Positions 24,214 to 33,872 of a stretch of 33,872 nucleotides of DNA are shown here, piece by piece (the first letter of the stretch is position 1; each line of letters starts with the position of its first letter). The stretch is from Draconibacterium orientale. Its GTDB lineage: Bacteria; Bacteroidota; Bacteroidia; Bacteroidales; FEN-979. Location of the stretch: the NCBI GenBank assembly GCA_020719165.1, contig DYQT01000011.1, positions 1-33,872 on the forward strand. Direction: 5' to 3'. The translations under genes were made by a program, and so were the position numbers. The notes below the pieces were generated by a model. That model was not told where the DNA came from. It saw only the letters and a list, made by a program, of their open reading frames with translations, and searched no databases.

Positions 24214-27200
24214 ATGTATAAAATTACAAAACATCCCATTCTCGATATTCAGGAACACAAGCAGACCTCCTTTGTGTTTAACGGTCAGCAGGTTACCGGC
24301 GACCGTGGATTCACAATTGCTGCCGCTCTTCATCAGGCAGGGCACCCTGTTCACAGTCACAGTTTAAGCAACCGCGAGCGAAGCCTCGAATGCGGAATCG
24401 GCAAGTGCGGCGCCTGCGAAATGCTGGTTGACGGACAAATCAAGCGTATCTGCATCACCTGCGTTGATGGAGTTAAAGAGGTTAAGGAGATTCCGCACGA
24501 CTATGCACCATGCGCCGTTCCGGTGACAAAAGAGACGCCGCTCAACGTTTATAAAACCACCGTGGCCATTATTGGCGCAGGCCCTGCCGGATTGGCAGCC
24601 CGCGAAGAGCTGAACAAGCATCAGATGGCCAATATCGTAATAGATAATAACGACAAAATTGGCGGACAGTTTTTAATGCAGACGCATCAGTTTTTCTTTT
24701 TCGAGAAGGAGCAGAAATTCGGAGGCATGCGCGGCTTTGACATAGCCAAAACACTGGCAGGGGAGAGCCACGAAGGAATTTTCCTGAATTCTACTGTCTG
24801 GGACATCCTGGAAGGGGGAAGGATTGCCGTGAAGAACATCCGATCGGGGGAAATTTATTTTGTCGATGCCGAATACATGATTGTGGCAACCGGTGCCGTT
24901 CCCTTTATGCCAACCTTTGAAAATGATGATCTCCCGGGCGTGTTCACCGCAGCCGTTGTGCAAAAGATGATGAACCAGGAGCTGACCCTGCTGGGTAAGA
25001 ACATTCTCACGGTTGGAGCAGGCAACATCGGCTATCTCACCTCTTATCAGCTCATGCAGGCCGGAGCCAATGTAAAAGCGATTCTTGAGGCCATGCCCGG
25101 CGAAGGGGGTTTTCCGGTTCAGGCAAATCGCGTGAGGCGGCTGGGGATTCCGATCCTTACCTCCCACATCCTGTTAAAGGCGATCCCCAACGAACATCAC
25201 GATGGCATTATTGGTGCGGTGGTGGCTGAATGTGAAAATTTTAAGCCCATCCCCGGAACAGAAAAGATCATCGATGGCATTGATGCCATTAATATTTGCA
25301 CCGGATTGGTTCAGGACGACCAGTTGCTCATCAAAGGCAATGAAATTTTTGGCCGCCGGTGTTTCGGTGCGGGAGATGCCATCAGGATTGGGGAGGGTAC
25401 CAGCGCTGTGCTGCGAGGGAAACAGGCTGCTTTTGATGTGCTTCAGGAGATGGGCGAACATTATAGTTATGACGAATTTCTCTCCTTGTCAAAAGAATAC
25501 ATCGATTCACAACAACATCCGGTCAGGGTGATCGGGGAGGCGGCTCAGCCAACATCTCAGCGGATGAAAGATAAGGGTTTTGTCCTGATCGACTGTTTGT
25601 ATGGATTTGCCTGCAATCCATGCGCCTTTGCATGTCCGCATGGCGCCATTACCAAATCGTCGACCAGCACCGTACCTGAGATTGATTTTCAAAAATGCAT
25701 CGGATGCATGGATTGTGTTTACCAATGCCCGGGTTTGGCCATTTTTGGTTATAACCTGAAAAAAGATTGGCTGTTTTTACCCATTGAATATGAAGTTGCT
25801 GAAAAATCGGCCTGCTTTCTCGTCGACAATCAGGGGAAACAACTTGGAGAGGGCATTGTGGAGAAAGTTTTGCGAAAACCAAATAAAACCAACATTGCCA
25901 GGGTCTTATCACTCACAGTTCACGGGGAGGAACTTACCAAAGTACGCGGCTTCATTGGCAAAGAAAATTACCCAAAGCCCATCGAATTTAAACCATATAC
26001 CACAGAGCCCAAGGAAACAACCTATGTTTGTCACTGTGATGATGTAACGATGGAGGAGGTTCTGGAGACCATCGGCGAACGTAAATTCATCTCGGTGGAT
26101 GAGGTAAAGCACACCACCCGCCTCGGCATGGGAGCCTGTCGCGGAAAGCGTTGCATCAAGCGGTTGAAGTCGACCCTTTATGGATCAGGGATATCCATTG
26201 TGGGAGAACCAACACCGCGCGGGCCGTTATCGAACCAGGTGGCCATGGGCGAGCTCTATCCAAGGTTGGTACATGAACAGGTGATTACCAGTGTGAATGG
26301 TGTCAAACCGCAGAAAACACGCGTAAAATCGCTTGTAGCCGGAGGGGGCATCGGGGGCAGCGCTTTATTCAGGTATCTGAGTGAAGCCGGTATGGAGCCG
26401 GTATTGCTGAATTATGGTCGTGGCGCTTCATGGCGTAACATAGCCGGTGGCCGCCCGAACTTCTCACTGCCTGAATTGTCGGATATTGCCTCCAAAAACC
26501 ATGAGATATTCAAAGATTTGCAAAAGATTCATAATATTGATTATCGTCCGATTCTCTATGTAACGTTTGCCCATGATGAGGCCATGTACAAGGCGCTGGT
26601 CGATTCGATGTCGTGGTCGGATGCTTACATGGTTGAGCCGGGAGATTTTGCCAAAAAAATTGCGCCGGGCATCAATCCGGGCCTGAATACCTACCAGGCT
26701 GCCCTGATTACCCGCGATTGCTGGCAGGCCACTCCGGGCAGGGTTATCGATCTGGTTCGGCGGCTCGGGATCGACAACGGCGGGCGGGTTGAGGAGGATT
26801 GCAAACTCATTGATGTGCGCCTGGAGAAAGGATTGTATTCAGTGTTGGTTCAAAACCATCAGCGGAAATATATTGAATACGAAACGGAGGTGTTTATCAA
26901 TGCCCTGGGTCCGGAGGGCGAGAAATTTGCCAGTCAGCTGAATATCGAAACAGGCCTCTATCCGGTGAAGCATCAGGCGTTTATTACCCGGCGGTTGCCA
27001 ATGCTCGGGGTGAACGGAGCTCCGTTGCCAATGCTTATCGACCGCCGGAGATACAAGGGATTTACCGCAGTTTATGGACAGCAGCTGGCCGAAACCGGGC
27101 AGATTATCGGCTGTGCATCGCCTGCCATTGAAGCAATGGAGGCCGACAAAAACATCAAAATCAACTCTCAGGATTTTATTGAGATTGCCTCTGAGATATT

Positions 27201-27447
27201 CACCAATTGGATACCCGAACTCTCTTCGGTCGGTTTCCAGGCGGTGTGGGCCGGTTATTATGTGGAACCCCGCATGATCATAGATCCGGAACTCGGGTTG
27301 TTTCTTGGGCTTCGCGGACAAGGTTTCATGCTGGGGCAATACCTCGCCAAGATGTATGTTGACAAGCTTTTAGGAAAACCTGCCCCTGAATATTTCAACC
27401 GGTTGAAACTGGGTGGGGACGGGTTGCTGGAGAAGGCTTTTAAGTAA
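24214..27447 (+). CDS. multi-domain FAD/iron-sulfur dehydrogenase, fused HcnABC / dye-linked L-proline dehydrogenase-like
   Basis: A 1077-residue polypeptide that joins parts normally encoded by separate genes. In order: a [2Fe-2S] domain of the Fer2_4 type (Cys60, 65, 68 and 80); an FAD/NAD disulfide-oxidoreductase domain with GAGPAG at 121-126 and GAGNIG at 268-273; and an 8-cysteine ferredoxin insert (Cys461/467/470/474 and 495/498/501/505). Then come a BFD-like [2Fe-2S] domain (Cys606, 608, 642, 647) and a DAO-type FAD oxidase domain from about 703 (GGGIGG at 710-715) to the end. HcnA+B+C of hydrogen cyanide synthase, opine/nopaline oxidases, sarcosine oxidase alpha and archaeal dye-linked L-proline dehydrogenase share this plan. 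Oxidation of a secondary amine or imino acid with electrons passed through Fe-S centres is therefore likely; the proline dehydrogenase gene next door favours proline or hydroxyproline (inference). No transmembrane helix is seen. Its TAA stop is also the first TAA of an octamer array. Confidence 0.9.
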   Translation: MYKITKHPILDIQEHKQTSFVFNGQQVTGDRGFTIAAALHQAGHPVHSHSLSNRERSLECGIGKCGACEMLVDGQIKRICITCVDGVKEVKEIPHDYAPCAVPVTKETPLNVYKTTVAIIGAGPAGLAAREELNKHQMANIVIDNNDKIGGQFLMQTHQFFFFEKEQKFGGMRGFDIAKTLAGESHEGIFLNSTVWDILEGGRIAVKNIRSGEIYFVDAEYMIVATGAVPFMPTFENDDLPGVFTAAVVQKMMNQELTLLGKNILTVGAGNIGYLTSYQLMQAGANVKAILEAMPGEGGFPVQANRVRRLGIPILTSHILLKAIPNEHHDGIIGAVVAECENFKPIPGTEKIIDGIDAINICTGLVQDDQLLIKGNEIFGRRCFGAGDAIRIGEGTSAVLRGKQAAFDVLQEMGEHYSYDEFLSLSKEYIDSQQHPVRVIGEAAQPTSQRMKDKGFVLIDCLYGFACNPCAFACPHGAITKSSTSTVPEIDFQKCIGCMDCVYQCPGLAIFGYNLKKDWLFLPIEYEVAEKSACFLVDNQGKQLGEGIVEKVLRKPNKTNIARVLSLTVHGEELTKVRGFIGKENYPKPIEFKPYTTEPKETTYVCHCDDVTMEEVLETIGERKFISVDEVKHTTRLGMGACRGKRCIKRLKSTLYGSGISIVGEPTPRGPLSNQVAMGELYPRLVHEQVITSVNGVKPQKTRVKSLVAGGGIGGSALFRYLSEAGMEPVLLNYGRGASWRNIAGGRPNFSLPELSDIASKNHEIFKDLQKIHNIDYRPILYVTFAHDEAMYKALVDSMSWSDAYMVEPGDFAKKIAPGINPGLNTYQAALITRDCWQATPGRVIDLVRRLGIDNGGRVEEDCKLIDVRLEKGLYSVLVQNHQRKYIEYETEVFINALGPEGEKFASQLNIETGLYPVKHQAFITRRLPMLGVNGAPLPMLIDRRRYKGFTAVYGQQLAETGQIIGCASPAIEAMEADKNIKINSQDFIEIASEIFTNWIPELSSVGFQAVWAGYYVEPRMIIDPELGLFLGLRGQGFMLGQYLAKMYVDKLLGKPAPEYFNRLKLGGDGLLEKAFK

Positions 27448-27649
27448 TGTGCTGATGTGCTGATGTGATGATGTGATGTGCTAATGTGCTAATGTGCTGA
27501 TGTGCGAATGTGATGATGTGCTGATGTGCTGATGTGATGGTGTGATGATGTGATGATGTGATGATGTGCTGATGTGATGATGTGCTGATGTGCTGATGTG
27601 CTAATGTGCTGATGTGCTAATGTGCTGATGTGATGATGTGCTGGTGTGA
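27445..27649 (+). repeat. octamer array TRATGTGM, 25 full units
   Basis: Head-to-tail octamers (mostly TGATGTGC, TGATGTGA and TAATGTGC) with one 5-nt partial unit near 27477-27481. No spacers are present, so this is not CRISPR. The first unit, TAATGTGC at 27445-27452, contains the stop codon of the upstream flavoprotein gene. An inverted array of the same octamer ends the segment at 28053-28116. Confidence 0.95.
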
Positions 27650-27667
27650 TGATTATTTAAGATTGAA

Positions 27668-28018
27668 TTATTTGGGGGAGTTTTTCGAGGTTGAGATAAT
27701 TTTTGACAATATCTTTTTTAGGACTATGATTTTATCAAGTAGTTGATCAGGTGAGGGATAGAATTTTGAGTGTTTGCACAGAAGAAGCCAATACTCTGTC
27801 TCTTCCGCTTCTTTCGAAGATATTTTCATCTTATGTATGAAATCAATTTTACTTTCTGCAGATTGTGCTTCACGAATATTTGCACCGATCGATGTCCCGG
27901 ATTTTAACAACTGATGTGAGATCACAAATCGACGTTTTTCTTCAAGAAGTTCGCAATAATCAACAACAAGTAGCGCAAACTCAAACGATAAATCCAAAAT
28001 CTGATTTTCTTTTACCAT
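27668..28018 (-). CDS. four-helix-bundle protein (S23 / bAvd family)
   Basis: A 116-residue protein matching the four-helix-bundle family first known from 23S rRNA intervening sequences and related to Avd, the accessory protein of diversity-generating retroelements. Diagnostic stretches are LSFEFALLVVDYCELL, the central HQLLKSGTSIGANIREAQSA (helix turn with conserved Ser-Gly and Asn-Ile-x-Glu-Ala) and KISSKEAEETEYWLLL. Length is normal for the family. The start at 28018 (ATG) is preferred to a TTG six codons upstream. The protein is basic and presumed to bind nucleic acid; no reverse transcriptase or template repeat is present, so this is not a complete DGR. The gene sits alone between inverted octamer arrays. 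Confidence 0.92.
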   Translation of the reverse strand: MVKENQILDLSFEFALLVVDYCELLEEKRRFVISHQLLKSGTSIGANIREAQSAESKIDFIHKMKISSKEAEETEYWLLLCKHSKFYPSPDQLLDKIIVLKKILSKIISTSKNSPK

Positions 28019-28052
28019 AAAAATCTGAATTATCAAATTAATCCATTATTAA

Positions 28053-28116
28053 TCACATCATCCCATCAGCAAATTAGCACATTAGCACATCAGCACATCA
28101 GCACATTAGTACATTA
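28053..28116 (-). repeat. octamer array in inverted orientation, 8 units
   Basis: Read on the minus strand, eight contiguous octamers: TAATGTAC, TAATGTGC, TGATGTGC, TGATGTGC, TAATGTGC, then three degenerate ones. They are the reverse complement of the array at 27445-27649. The outermost unit contains the TAA stop of proline dehydrogenase (28116-28114). Confidence 0.93.
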
Positions 28117-29025
28117 GCCTTTTACAAACAAAGCCTTGATAATATGTGTCGCCATCTTCGGGTTTTCTTTTAACCGGCGGGTTGAATAACCAAACCATTC
28201 TTTTCCGAAGGGGACATATACCCGCATGGTGTGGCCTTTGTTAACAATCGATTGACGCAGATCGGGGGTGACGCCATACAGCATCTGAAACTCGTATCTG
28301 TTTTTTGGGACTTTGTACTTTTCGATCAATTTATAAGCGCCTTCAACCAGAGGTTTGTCGTGGGTGGCGATGCCCGGATACATCCCCTGCTGAAACATGT
28401 ATTCAAGATCTTCGAGATAATGATCATTAATTTCCTGGTAATTTTTATAGGCAATGCTGGCGGGTTCCACATAAATTCCTTTGCACAGGCGAAAGTTCAG
28501 GGGAGTTCCGGCCTTGTGAAGATCTTTCATGTTTTTAATGTCAGTCAGGGTGCGTCGCATGTAAGCCTGCAAAACGAGTCCGACATGCGCGGGGAATTCG
28601 CTGTGCAATTTTCTGAAGAGGTCAATTTCGAGGTCGGTACATTGTGAGTCTTCCATGTCGACCCGAACGAAATTTCCATAGGCGGCCGATTTCGCAACAA
28701 TTTCGCGGATGTTCCGGTAGCAGGCCTCCGGGTCAATCAGCAAGCCGAAACTGGTTGGCTTGAGCGAATAATTGCCAACAATCTTCTCTCTTTCTATCTG
28801 TTCGATGATGTCGAGGTAGGCGTTTTTATTGGCGGTAGCCTCTTCGAGCCGGGTGATAAACTCACCCAGAAGGTCGATGGTGATTTTTACATTTTGACCA
28901 TTCAGAACGCGGCAAACCCTTATTGCATCGTTCATTGTTTCCCCGGCGATATATTTTCGTGAAAAAATCCACACCAGCTTTTTGGGCATCAGAGGGAGCA
29001 TTTTTGTTATCAATAGGTTGATCAT
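28114..29025 (-). CDS. proline dehydrogenase
   Basis: A 303-residue monofunctional FAD-dependent proline dehydrogenase (ProDH domain of PutA), oxidising proline to pyrroline-5-carboxylate and passing electrons to the quinone pool. Seen motifs are VRVDMEDS, the strand-helix FRLCKGIY, YEFQMLYG and VYVPFGKEWFGYSTRRLKEN, whose paired arginines bind the proline carboxylate. The length fits the short stand-alone enzymes of Gram-positive and Bacteroidota type. The ATG at 29025 is chosen over an upstream GTG. It is divergent from the DUF177-rpmF operon and convergent with the large flavoprotein, another likely amino- or imino-acid dehydrogenase. The P5C dehydrogenase is not in the window. Confidence 0.95.
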   Translation of the reverse strand: MINLLITKMLPLMPKKLVWIFSRKYIAGETMNDAIRVCRVLNGQNVKITIDLLGEFITRLEEATANKNAYLDIIEQIEREKIVGNYSLKPTSFGLLIDPEACYRNIREIVAKSAAYGNFVRVDMEDSQCTDLEIDLFRKLHSEFPAHVGLVLQAYMRRTLTDIKNMKDLHKAGTPLNFRLCKGIYVEPASIAYKNYQEINDHYLEDLEYMFQQGMYPGIATHDKPLVEGAYKLIEKYKVPKNRYEFQMLYGVTPDLRQSIVNKGHTMRVYVPFGKEWFGYSTRRLKENPKMATHIIKALFVKG

Positions 29026-29059
29026 AAGCACATCATGTTAAATTGTTCAATGAATGGCA

Positions 29060-29133: not shown

Positions 29134-29658
29134 GTGAATCAGGCGGATCAATATCAAATTGCGTTCAGCGGACTAAATGCCGGAACGCATACATTCGATT
29201 TTCAGATCGGCAAGACTTTCTTTGAACAGGTTAAAGATGCTGAGATCACGGGTGGAGAGGTGACGGTGATTGTTACCATGGAGAAGGAAGAACGCATGAT
29301 GGACCTTCATCTGGCGATTCGGGGCAAAGTAGAAGTACCGTGCGATCGGTGTAACGAGATGATGGATGTTGACATAGAGGGAAATGAGCGCCTGATTATC
29401 AAGTTGGGGGATCATTATTATGAAGAAAGTGAAGATGTGCAGGTTATACCCGACACATCTCACCAATTTGACTTGAGTCCCTTCTTGTATGAGTATATTC
29501 ATTTGCTGCTTCCCATCCGCAGGGTTCATCCGGAGGATGAAGACGGCGAAAGTCAATGTGATCCTGAGGTTATTAAAAAGCTTAGGGAGTTGAGTGAGCG
29601 TCACGTGCAGGATCCCAGGTGGGAAGCCCTGAATCAATTGAAAAAGAAAAAAGAGTAA
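29134..29658 (+). CDS. DUF177 (YceD-like) protein
   Basis: A 174-residue cytoplasmic protein of the DUF177/YceD family, nearly always encoded directly before rpmF. It is linked in plants and bacteria to 23S rRNA accumulation or processing. The GTG at 29134 is taken as start because family members begin just before the (Y)QIAFSGLNAGTHTFDF strand, and the promoter lies between it and the upstream ATG at 29035. The conserved CxxC (VPCDRCNE) and the C-terminal CDPEVIKKLREL helix followed by DPRWEALNQL are family hallmarks. It is first in the rpmF-plsX-fabH operon. A short heptamer array separates it from rpmF. Confidence 0.88.
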   Translation: MNQADQYQIAFSGLNAGTHTFDFQIGKTFFEQVKDAEITGGEVTVIVTMEKEERMMDLHLAIRGKVEVPCDRCNEMMDVDIEGNERLIIKLGDHYYEESEDVQVIPDTSHQFDLSPFLYEYIHLLLPIRRVHPEDEDGESQCDPEVIKKLRELSERHVQDPRWEALNQLKKKKE

Positions 29659-29686: not shown

Positions 29687-29721
29687 AAATCGTAAATCGT
29701 AAATCGTAAATCATAAATCAT
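29687..29721 (+). repeat. heptamer array AAATCRT, 5 units
   Basis: Three AAATCGT units followed by two AAATCAT units in the 77-bp gap between the DUF177 gene and rpmF, ending 14 nt before the rpmF start. It could affect translation initiation of rpmF, but nothing shows that it does. Confidence 0.85.
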
Positions 29722-29735
29722 AAATACCCAGTACT

Positions 29736-33286: not shown

Positions 33287-33328
33287 CGTGACGCGTGACA
33301 CGTGACGGGTGACACGTGACAGATGACG
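33287..33328 (+). repeat. heptamer array CGTGACR, 6 units
   Basis: Six consecutive heptamers (CGTGACG, CGTGACA, CGTGACG, GGTGACA, CGTGACA, GATGACG) between the CNNM/CBS gene and the last gene. The TGAC core recurs in the reverse complement of the coding heptamer array 326 bp downstream. Confidence 0.88.
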
Positions 33329-33402: not shown

Positions 33403-33872
33403 ATGAAGATTTATAAGATTTTATCCATTCTTTTATTAATAGCCTCTTCGGCAGTTGTATTTGGTCAAACGGCCAGGATGTTGCCTGAGGTTACCCCCGC
33501 CGGAAAAGGAAAGGTGAACACCATGGTCGACAACATTGGCTACTGGTCGCGGATGGTTCAGCTCGGATATGTCAAAGCCAATCCAAAAACAAACATTCCA
33601 CCGGCCCACTTCAATGGATCAACGATAATTGTATATGACCCGGCATCTGATTCCCGTCATTCGTCATTCGTCACTCGTCATTCGTCACTCGTCATTCGTC
33701 ATTCGTCACTCGTCACTCGTCATTCGTCATTCGTCACTCGTCATTCGTCATTCATACAAAACTCCCCCGATGTTCCGGTAACCGGCGAAACCAACGTTAC
33801 CCAGAGCGAAAATTCCCTTTTCATTGATCCGGCAGATGAGAACGTGGTGCTGAACTCCAATAATTCGAGCAG
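33403..33872 (+). CDS. secreted protein with in-frame heptamer array, 3' end beyond window
   Basis: The frame is open from the ATG at 33403 to the window end (156 codons). It starts with a signal peptide (MKIYKILSILLLIASSAVVFG, then QTARMLPEV). Residues 85-117 are encoded by 14 tandem heptamers and read as a low-complexity RHSSFVT-type repeat. On either side the sequence is ordinary: NGSTIIVYDPASDS before, and NSPDVPVTGETNVTQSENSLFIDPADENVVLNSNNSS after. The latter resembles the opening of large Bacteroidota exported proteins with sialidase/BNR-type repeats and a T9SS tail, but too little is visible to be sure. The gene is preceded by a TAnnTTTG box and a second heptamer array. Confidence 0.8.
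   Translation, partial: MKIYKILSILLLIASSAVVFGQTARMLPEVTPAGKGKVNTMVDNIGYWSRMVQLGYVKANPKTNIPPAHFNGSTIIVYDPASDSRHSSFVTRHSSLVIRHSSLVTRHSSFVTRHSSFIQNSPDVPVTGETNVTQSENSLFIDPADENVVLNSNNSS
33655..33752 (+). repeat. 14-unit heptanucleotide array CGTCAYT inside a coding sequence
   Basis: Fourteen uninterrupted heptamers, nine CGTCATT and five CGTCACT, 98 nt in all, starting exactly at codon 85. The plus strand has no stop in any frame of the unit, whereas the minus strand does (AATGACGAATGACG gives TGA). Confidence 0.95.

Follow-up and report, generated by a model that had tools for sequence, protein, structure and literature searches.

Inverted arrays of lineage-specific short repeats around bacterial S23 genes: a probable family of selfish elements

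Background

In Draconibacterium orientale (assembly GCA_020719165.1, contig DYQT01000011.1), a single gene of the S23 family, set between two inverted arrays of the octamer TRATGTGM, fills the space between two convergent genes coding for a flavoprotein and a proline dehydrogenase. What kind of unit is this, and is it peculiar to this site? An initial annotation of the 33,872-nucleotide stretch of DNA analysed here (hereafter the window) proposed a small non-autonomous mobile or RNA-level unit. In this study we examined the element and its protein, S23 loci in related genomes, in named genomes and on plasmids, and the orthologous junction in relatives of the source genome.

Results

The element and its neighbours

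The 25 left and eight inverted right octamers initially described as enclosing one S23-type gene are all present (Table 1), 22 of the former and five of the latter matching TRATGTGM exactly. Also as described, the outermost units supply the stop codons of both neighbours: the TAA of the flavoprotein gene lies inside TAATGTGC, the outermost left unit at 27445, and that of the proline dehydrogenase gene inside TAATGTAC, the outermost right unit read from 28116. The S23 ORF stands alone between the arms, with no Y1-type transposase gene, and its start codon is likely the ATG at 28018 rather than the TTG at 28036. No target-site duplication was recognised by eye around the element, whose outer units are merged with the neighbours' stop codons, so that the original target bases are indistinguishable.

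Table 1. Features of the window element and of the genes on either side
Feature	Position in window	Strand	Description
Flavoprotein (FAD-dependent oxidoreductase)	24214..27447	+	1077 aa; DAO, Pyr_redox_2 and Fer2 domains; neighbour
Left array (3' arm seen from S23)	27445..27649	+	25 TRATGTGM octamers and one 5-base partial unit
S23 / four-helix-bundle gene	27668..28018	-	116 aa from ATG at 28018; PF05635, TIGR02436
Right array (5' arm of the element)	28053..28116	-	8 octamers, inverted relative to the left array
Proline dehydrogenase	28114..29031	-	305 aa; neighbour

When the upstream flank of the S23 gene was aligned to its reverse-complemented downstream flank, the local score was 52, against a median of 12 for 142 control ORFs, a set that includes the S23 gene itself and in which no other ORF scores above 33.6. 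The arms can indeed pair into a stem around the gene, as had been suggested, with an RNA fold z of -5.9 (20 shuffles), a strength expected from their complementarity.

Other short-period arrays occur in the window. A solitary AAATCGT array (29687-29725, 5.6 copies), with no adjacent S23 gene, separates an ORF whose end is at 29658 from the small gene that follows, the two being putatively yceD/DUF177 and rpmF. A CGTGACA heptamer array (33287-33328) lies upstream of an open frame which begins at 33403 and reaches the window end without a stop; inside this frame, a CGTCATT array of 14 copies (33655-33753) runs in the stop-free direction.

The enclosed protein

In profile searches the protein passes the cut-offs of both PF05635 (78.3 bits against 33.8) and TIGR02436 (90.6 bits against 24). 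Its AlphaFold model (pLDDT 93) is a four-helix bundle that matches the S23 protein of B. thetaiotaomicron (2rld, E 4.5e-7) and also Xcc0516 (2gsc). Each of these two structure entries holds five chains, and Xcc0516 has been reported as a homopentamer (PMC4990558). Matches to Avd, the accessory protein of diversity-generating retroelements (DGR), are far weaker (8ub7_B, TM 0.72, E 0.58; 4dwl_D, TM 0.58, E 0.68) and rank below plant invertase/PMEI inhibitor bundles; since the latter score equally well, the resemblance to Avd is weak. The charge of the window protein is nearly neutral (18 K+R vs 16 D+E) and thus offers no charge-based argument for nucleic-acid binding. Across 50 pairs of S23 genes, non-independent because they share members, the median dN/dS is 0.155, indicating that the protein is maintained by purifying selection.

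The boxed layout is general around S23 genes

S23 genes occur in at least 53 of 61 related genomes, often several per genome. The loci taken from relatives are the better-scoring part of a longer list (29 loci beyond those of the source genome; 60 stretches), so that the sample is biased towards intact genes. Inverted flank comparison gave a median local score of 33 over 108 S23 loci, against 12 in the 142 control ORFs, 13 in direct orientation and 13 when partners were swapped between loci; the inverted score exceeded the direct one in 92 of the 108 loci and was lower in 16.

Of 109 S23 loci, 12 on plasmids and the others in relatives, 79 have clear tandem arrays above threshold on both flanks and eight on neither; two duplicates (L069 and L085, of L035 and L033) and loci with a flank below 120 bases are left out of these counts. 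Among the 79 two-armed loci, the period was equal in 77 and the arms were reverse complements within two mismatches in 69, the upstream period being 7 (47 loci), 8 (25), 9 (6) or 10 (1). Only one of 98 control genes had arrays on both sides, namely the S23 gene of genome G017, and 29 had a one-sided array, so arrays are also common near other genes. The layout recurred in a scan of named genomes (80 loci kept, 78 usable), with both arms present at 52 of 78 loci, of equal period in all 52 and reverse complementary in 50; titles included Bacteroidota, Clostridia, Verrucomicrobia, Sulfurovum and Alcanivorax, and the loci of some phyla failed.

Plasmid records were examined for 12 of 25 listed and for a further 6 of 31. 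The first 12 loci (cyanobacteria, Treponema, Monoglobus, Chlorohelix and Bernardetia) all showed a best period of 7 or 14 on both sides, inverted within two mismatches in eight and direct in L183, L185 and L186. Outside the 109-locus counts stand the six later plasmid loci, of which L308-L310 have clear arms, L312 and L313 weaker ones and L311 doubtful ones, and a single phage locus (L314, one of two listed), where no arrays were found. Four of the 18 plasmid S23 genes (L182, L183, L186 and L311) lie inside or beside defence operons, set respectively between the two members of the hsdS/hsdR, cas2/cas1, drmD/MmeI-type enzyme and cas10/Cmr3 gene pairs.

The boxing of S23 genes is therefore a real and general association. 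The idea of a purely local oddity is ruled out by its recurrence in many bacteria, and the expectation of the initial annotation that arrays would flank S23 genes in relatives was borne out, TRATGTGM arrays among them.

The repeat unit follows the protein

Of 39 pairs of S23 proteins more than 70% identical, 97% have a common period and 74% a common unit (6 of 7 or better); in pairs below 45% identity, the unit is shared in about 1%. A Mantel test of unit against protein over 86 elements, same-locus orthologues counted in, gave r 0.21 (p 0.0005). The drift is stepwise among relatives of the window S23, through TRATGTGM, TTGATGAG and ATTTGAAG, and in elements occupying one conserved locus both arms drift alike (e.g. 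TAGGGAT, TAGCGAT, AGCCATG), which points to homogenisation between the two arms of an element.

Across 61 genomes, those bearing arrays of a unit tend to have the closer S23: the AUC is 0.78 for TRATGTGM arrays (p 9e-4) and 0.93 for GGACARGY arrays (p 4e-7), genomes without a listed S23 match being set to 15 bits. Repeating the rank test within one family, by which kinship is partly controlled, gave 0.71 (p 0.02) and 0.89 (p 4e-5), respectively; swapped pairings of unit and S23 gave 0.64 and 0.66, not significant. At a 60% identity cut, an S23 like that of the window was found in nine of 13 genomes with TRATGTGM arrays, four of the nine being fragments, and in six of the 48 others (Fisher p 1.3e-4); thus four genomes have the arrays without such an S23 and six the reverse. 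In genome G006 both occur together, its window-like S23 having arms of ATTTGAAG. From these sequence comparisons, each S23 lineage appears to have its own repeat, the unit co-varying with the protein.

Placement, polarity and flanks

Arrays tend to begin at gene 3' ends. Of 80 5' arms, 44 are entered by an open frame of 100 codons or more, which in 39 of the 44 stops between -15 and +16 relative to where the array begins; of 83 3' arms, 34 are so entered, with a stop in that range in 22; at random flank points a frame runs in at 560 of 785, with only 18 of the 560 stopping in range. A frame enters 18 of 38 TRATGTGM arrays, mostly solitary (contigs C88 and C367 included), and all 18 stop in range, seven of them exactly on the first unit; stops that fall inside an array are in part dictated by the repeat itself, but not those ahead of it.

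Arms have a polarity, the unit on the strand 5' of S23 being G-rich in 72 of 86 elements and C-rich in five. Solitary arrays, which would weaken the initial annotation if oriented at random, are also biased: of 27 examined, 14 have a gene that ends into their F side, four have one that ends into their R side, and 12 have neither.

Related elements stand in unrelated flanks. We compared 95 pairs of loci that have 700 bases of flank and whose genes are 70% or more identical as DNA: in 75 the DNA homology ends within 350 bases of the gene, many of the 75 resting on short partial alignments, and in 20 it extends into a flank. Six of the 75 share a flank protein. Clear cases are L126/L147 and L137/L147, with 81-83% identity over about 430 bases ending ~70 before and 55 after the S23 domain. 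A Calothrix S23 on two plasmids was considered as a recent transposition and rejected: judging by the gene tables, what the two plasmids have in common is a larger block of several genes, which is hence uninformative on S23 transposition.

The flavoprotein/proline dehydrogenase junction in relatives

The two neighbours are convergent in many relatives. Both gene ends were located in 18 of 30 relatives' loci, the flavoprotein gene not being found nearby elsewhere; spacers range from 0 to 666 bases and measure 0-47 bases in 11 of the 18. Occupied junctions vary. That of G012 holds a 435-base TRATGTGM element, its interior inverted relative to the window and its S23 gene internally deleted; G016 has a long related array and a partial S23 gene before the contig ends; G017 has a different S23 gene with different octamer arrays, within 553 bases; in G018 there is an inverted pair of octamer arrays but no S23; and in G011 and G015 the arrays are short and made up of other octamers. 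This site has been used repeatedly by different arrays. A short or differently occupied junction is as expected of the mobile unit that had been proposed, and no S23 gene without arrays, the initial annotation's counter-case, was met at this place, that of G017 being flanked by another octamer.

Arrays elsewhere in the source genome

The source genome is a draft of 3.88 Mb in 520 contigs, 81% complete. Overlapping matches to three TRATGTGM units number 101 forward and 61 reverse genome-wide, and the reversed control pattern of three units has none. A solitary single array was found in 16 of the 20 stretches examined, several ending at the contig end. Contigs C81, C112, C140, C233, C316, C398 and C471 terminate in or near an octamer array; the arrays thus probably break the assembly and are under-counted. 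Contig C88 carries a second element, with inverted arrays around a shortened homologue of the window S23 gene, and contig C367 a minimal inverted pair of 3 + 5 units, 6 bases apart, which begins at the TGA stop of the preceding gene. Internally deleted and S23-less copies therefore exist.

The genome has five PF05635 matches, three above the cut-off. A weak one (23.4 bits; contig C302, 1056-2088; L034, L227) lies directly ahead of the sole RVT_1 match of the genome, and this pair of an Avd-like gene and a reverse transcriptase is probably a diversity-generating retroelement; no TRATGTGM array was found at that Avd-like gene. Two Y1_Tnp genes are present, both on contigs other than the window's.

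Discussion

The S23 element family is well supported. With a probability of about 0.6, we read the window feature as a member of a large family of selfish S23 elements, roughly 0.5-0.9 kb in size with units mostly of 7 or 8 bases, in which inverted lineage-specific arrays, set against the 3' ends of host genes, enclose an S23 gene whose product acts on its own repeat. Binding of S23 to that repeat, and movement of the element, are what we infer from comparing loci. An S23 oligomer, a pentamer in solved relatives, would recognise its repeat as RNA or as single-stranded DNA folded by the arms; together with host replication or repair or a borrowed enzyme, it could then lengthen arrays, homogenise them between arms and carry them to further gene ends. 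On this view, arrays that stand alone and inverted pairs that lack S23 would derive from complete elements and depend on an S23 protein acting in trans, much as REPINs depend on RAYT transposases, but S23 has no known catalytic site. Several observations speak against this reading: the 16 loci with the higher direct score, the eight loci lacking both arms, the one-sided arrays at 29 control genes, the genomes that have the arrays or the window-like S23 but not both, the ATTTGAAG arms in G006, the phage locus without arrays and the nearly neutral charge of the protein. The initially proposed mobile or RNA-level unit gains from the recurrence of the layout, the pairing arms and the short or otherwise occupied junctions; its non-autonomous character is not retained, given that S23 copies look complete and the S23-less arrays look like the derivatives; the protein may bind the arms, as was also proposed, in line with the co-variation of unit and protein.

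Two other explanations deserve weighing, neither of which we consider likely. The element may act at the RNA level, the arms forming a long double-stranded stem in the transcript that RNase III cleaves, as it does in rRNA intervening sequences, with S23 binding or protecting it, arrays serving processing or termination, and movement being rare. Complementary arms of fixed polarity around the S23 gene would suit such a role, as would the report that in Coxiella the RNase III site lies where the first heptamer ahead of the S23 ORF begins (PMC4990558), but on its own it leaves unexplained the solitary arrays, the different units at one junction and the related elements in unrelated flanks. It is likewise doubtful that an unrelated enzyme, of the Y1/RAYT transposase or DGR reverse transcriptase type, moves the elements in trans with S23 as an accessory nucleic-acid binder. 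The two Y1_Tnp genes of the source genome, its reverse transcriptase beside an Avd-like gene and the fold common to S23 and Avd speak for this; against it, array-bearing genomes G004, G010, G031 and G034 have no Y1_Tnp match (three are only 86-88% complete) and the Avd-like gene of the source genome has no TRATGTGM array, so that dependence on a RAYT is disfavoured. It is very improbable that slippage at gene ends, as proposed for bacterial heptamers (PMC4692102), makes arrays independently of S23 genes that merely happen to insert there, since the many arrays without S23 would agree with it but the inverted unit shared by both arms, the tracking of S23 lineage by unit, and the polarity would not.

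On the reading as selfish S23 elements, the finding joins S23 genes to the heptamer repeats of bacterial intergenic DNA, which lack an accepted cause, and such elements may be giving rise to short bacterial repeats that have had no explanation. More tentatively, and at somewhat less than even odds, S23 genes may define a widespread, unnamed class of mobile elements whose pentamer reads the unit and builds, homogenises and disperses arrays; most of the unexplained bacterial heptamer and octamer arrays would then stem from it, and rRNA intervening sequences would be members of the class that came to lie in rRNA genes. The finding makes the origin of rRNA intervening sequences testable and, as each S23 lineage seems to have its own repeat, lends itself readily to binding or genetic tests.

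Comparison with known systems

Several known classes were considered for the window element and set aside. It shows neither the reverse transcriptase nor the template/variable repeat of a diversity-generating retroelement, the only RVT_1 match of the genome being on contig C302; the likeness to that system is limited to the four-helix-bundle fold which S23 shares, in a weak match, with Avd. It is not a REPIN-RAYT system (PMC3116915), since it has no Y1-type transposase gene and both Y1_Tnp genes of the genome are on other contigs. The two systems are alike in their short inverted repeat pairs, around and away from the gene, and in a repeat class tied to protein lineage, and differ in that REPIN-RAYT combines a Y1 transposase with REP palindromes and S23 elements a four-helix bundle with tandem 7-8-mers. 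A MITE with a minisatellite has also been described (PMC4596501).

Heptamer arrays without an accepted cause are on record, namely TAACTGA (PMC4679880) and GGGNATC in Xanthomonas and Nostoc (PMC4692102), with about 70 inverted pairs of heptamer arrays in Xcc (PMC4692102). As reported there, these tandem 7-mers are mostly intergenic and some overlap stop codons, like the S23 arrays; the main texts of both papers make no mention of S23. Among the matches listed, from a search that left subscription papers and preprints mostly outside, no paper connects heptamer or octamer arrays with S23 genes at large.

The nearest known relatives are the S23-bearing intervening sequences of 23S rRNA, reported in Coxiella and Leptospira (PMC4990558), where an S23 ORF likewise lies between complementary ends. 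In Coxiella, two to three tandem heptamers precede the S23 ORF and RNase III cuts at a heptamer start (PMC4990558). The window element has the complementary ends and is nevertheless not such a sequence by location, its flanks being two protein genes and its site intergenic, whereas intervening sequences sit in the 23S rRNA gene. It further differs in its long, lineage-specific 7-8-mer arms and in the many S23-less copies, and the S23 gene described as decaying in the Coxiella intervening sequence (PMC4990558) is under purifying selection in the elements studied here. The window element is best classed as a variant of S23-bearing selfish elements, an association that was not found described among the matches listed, with the intervening sequences of 23S rRNA as its closest known kin.
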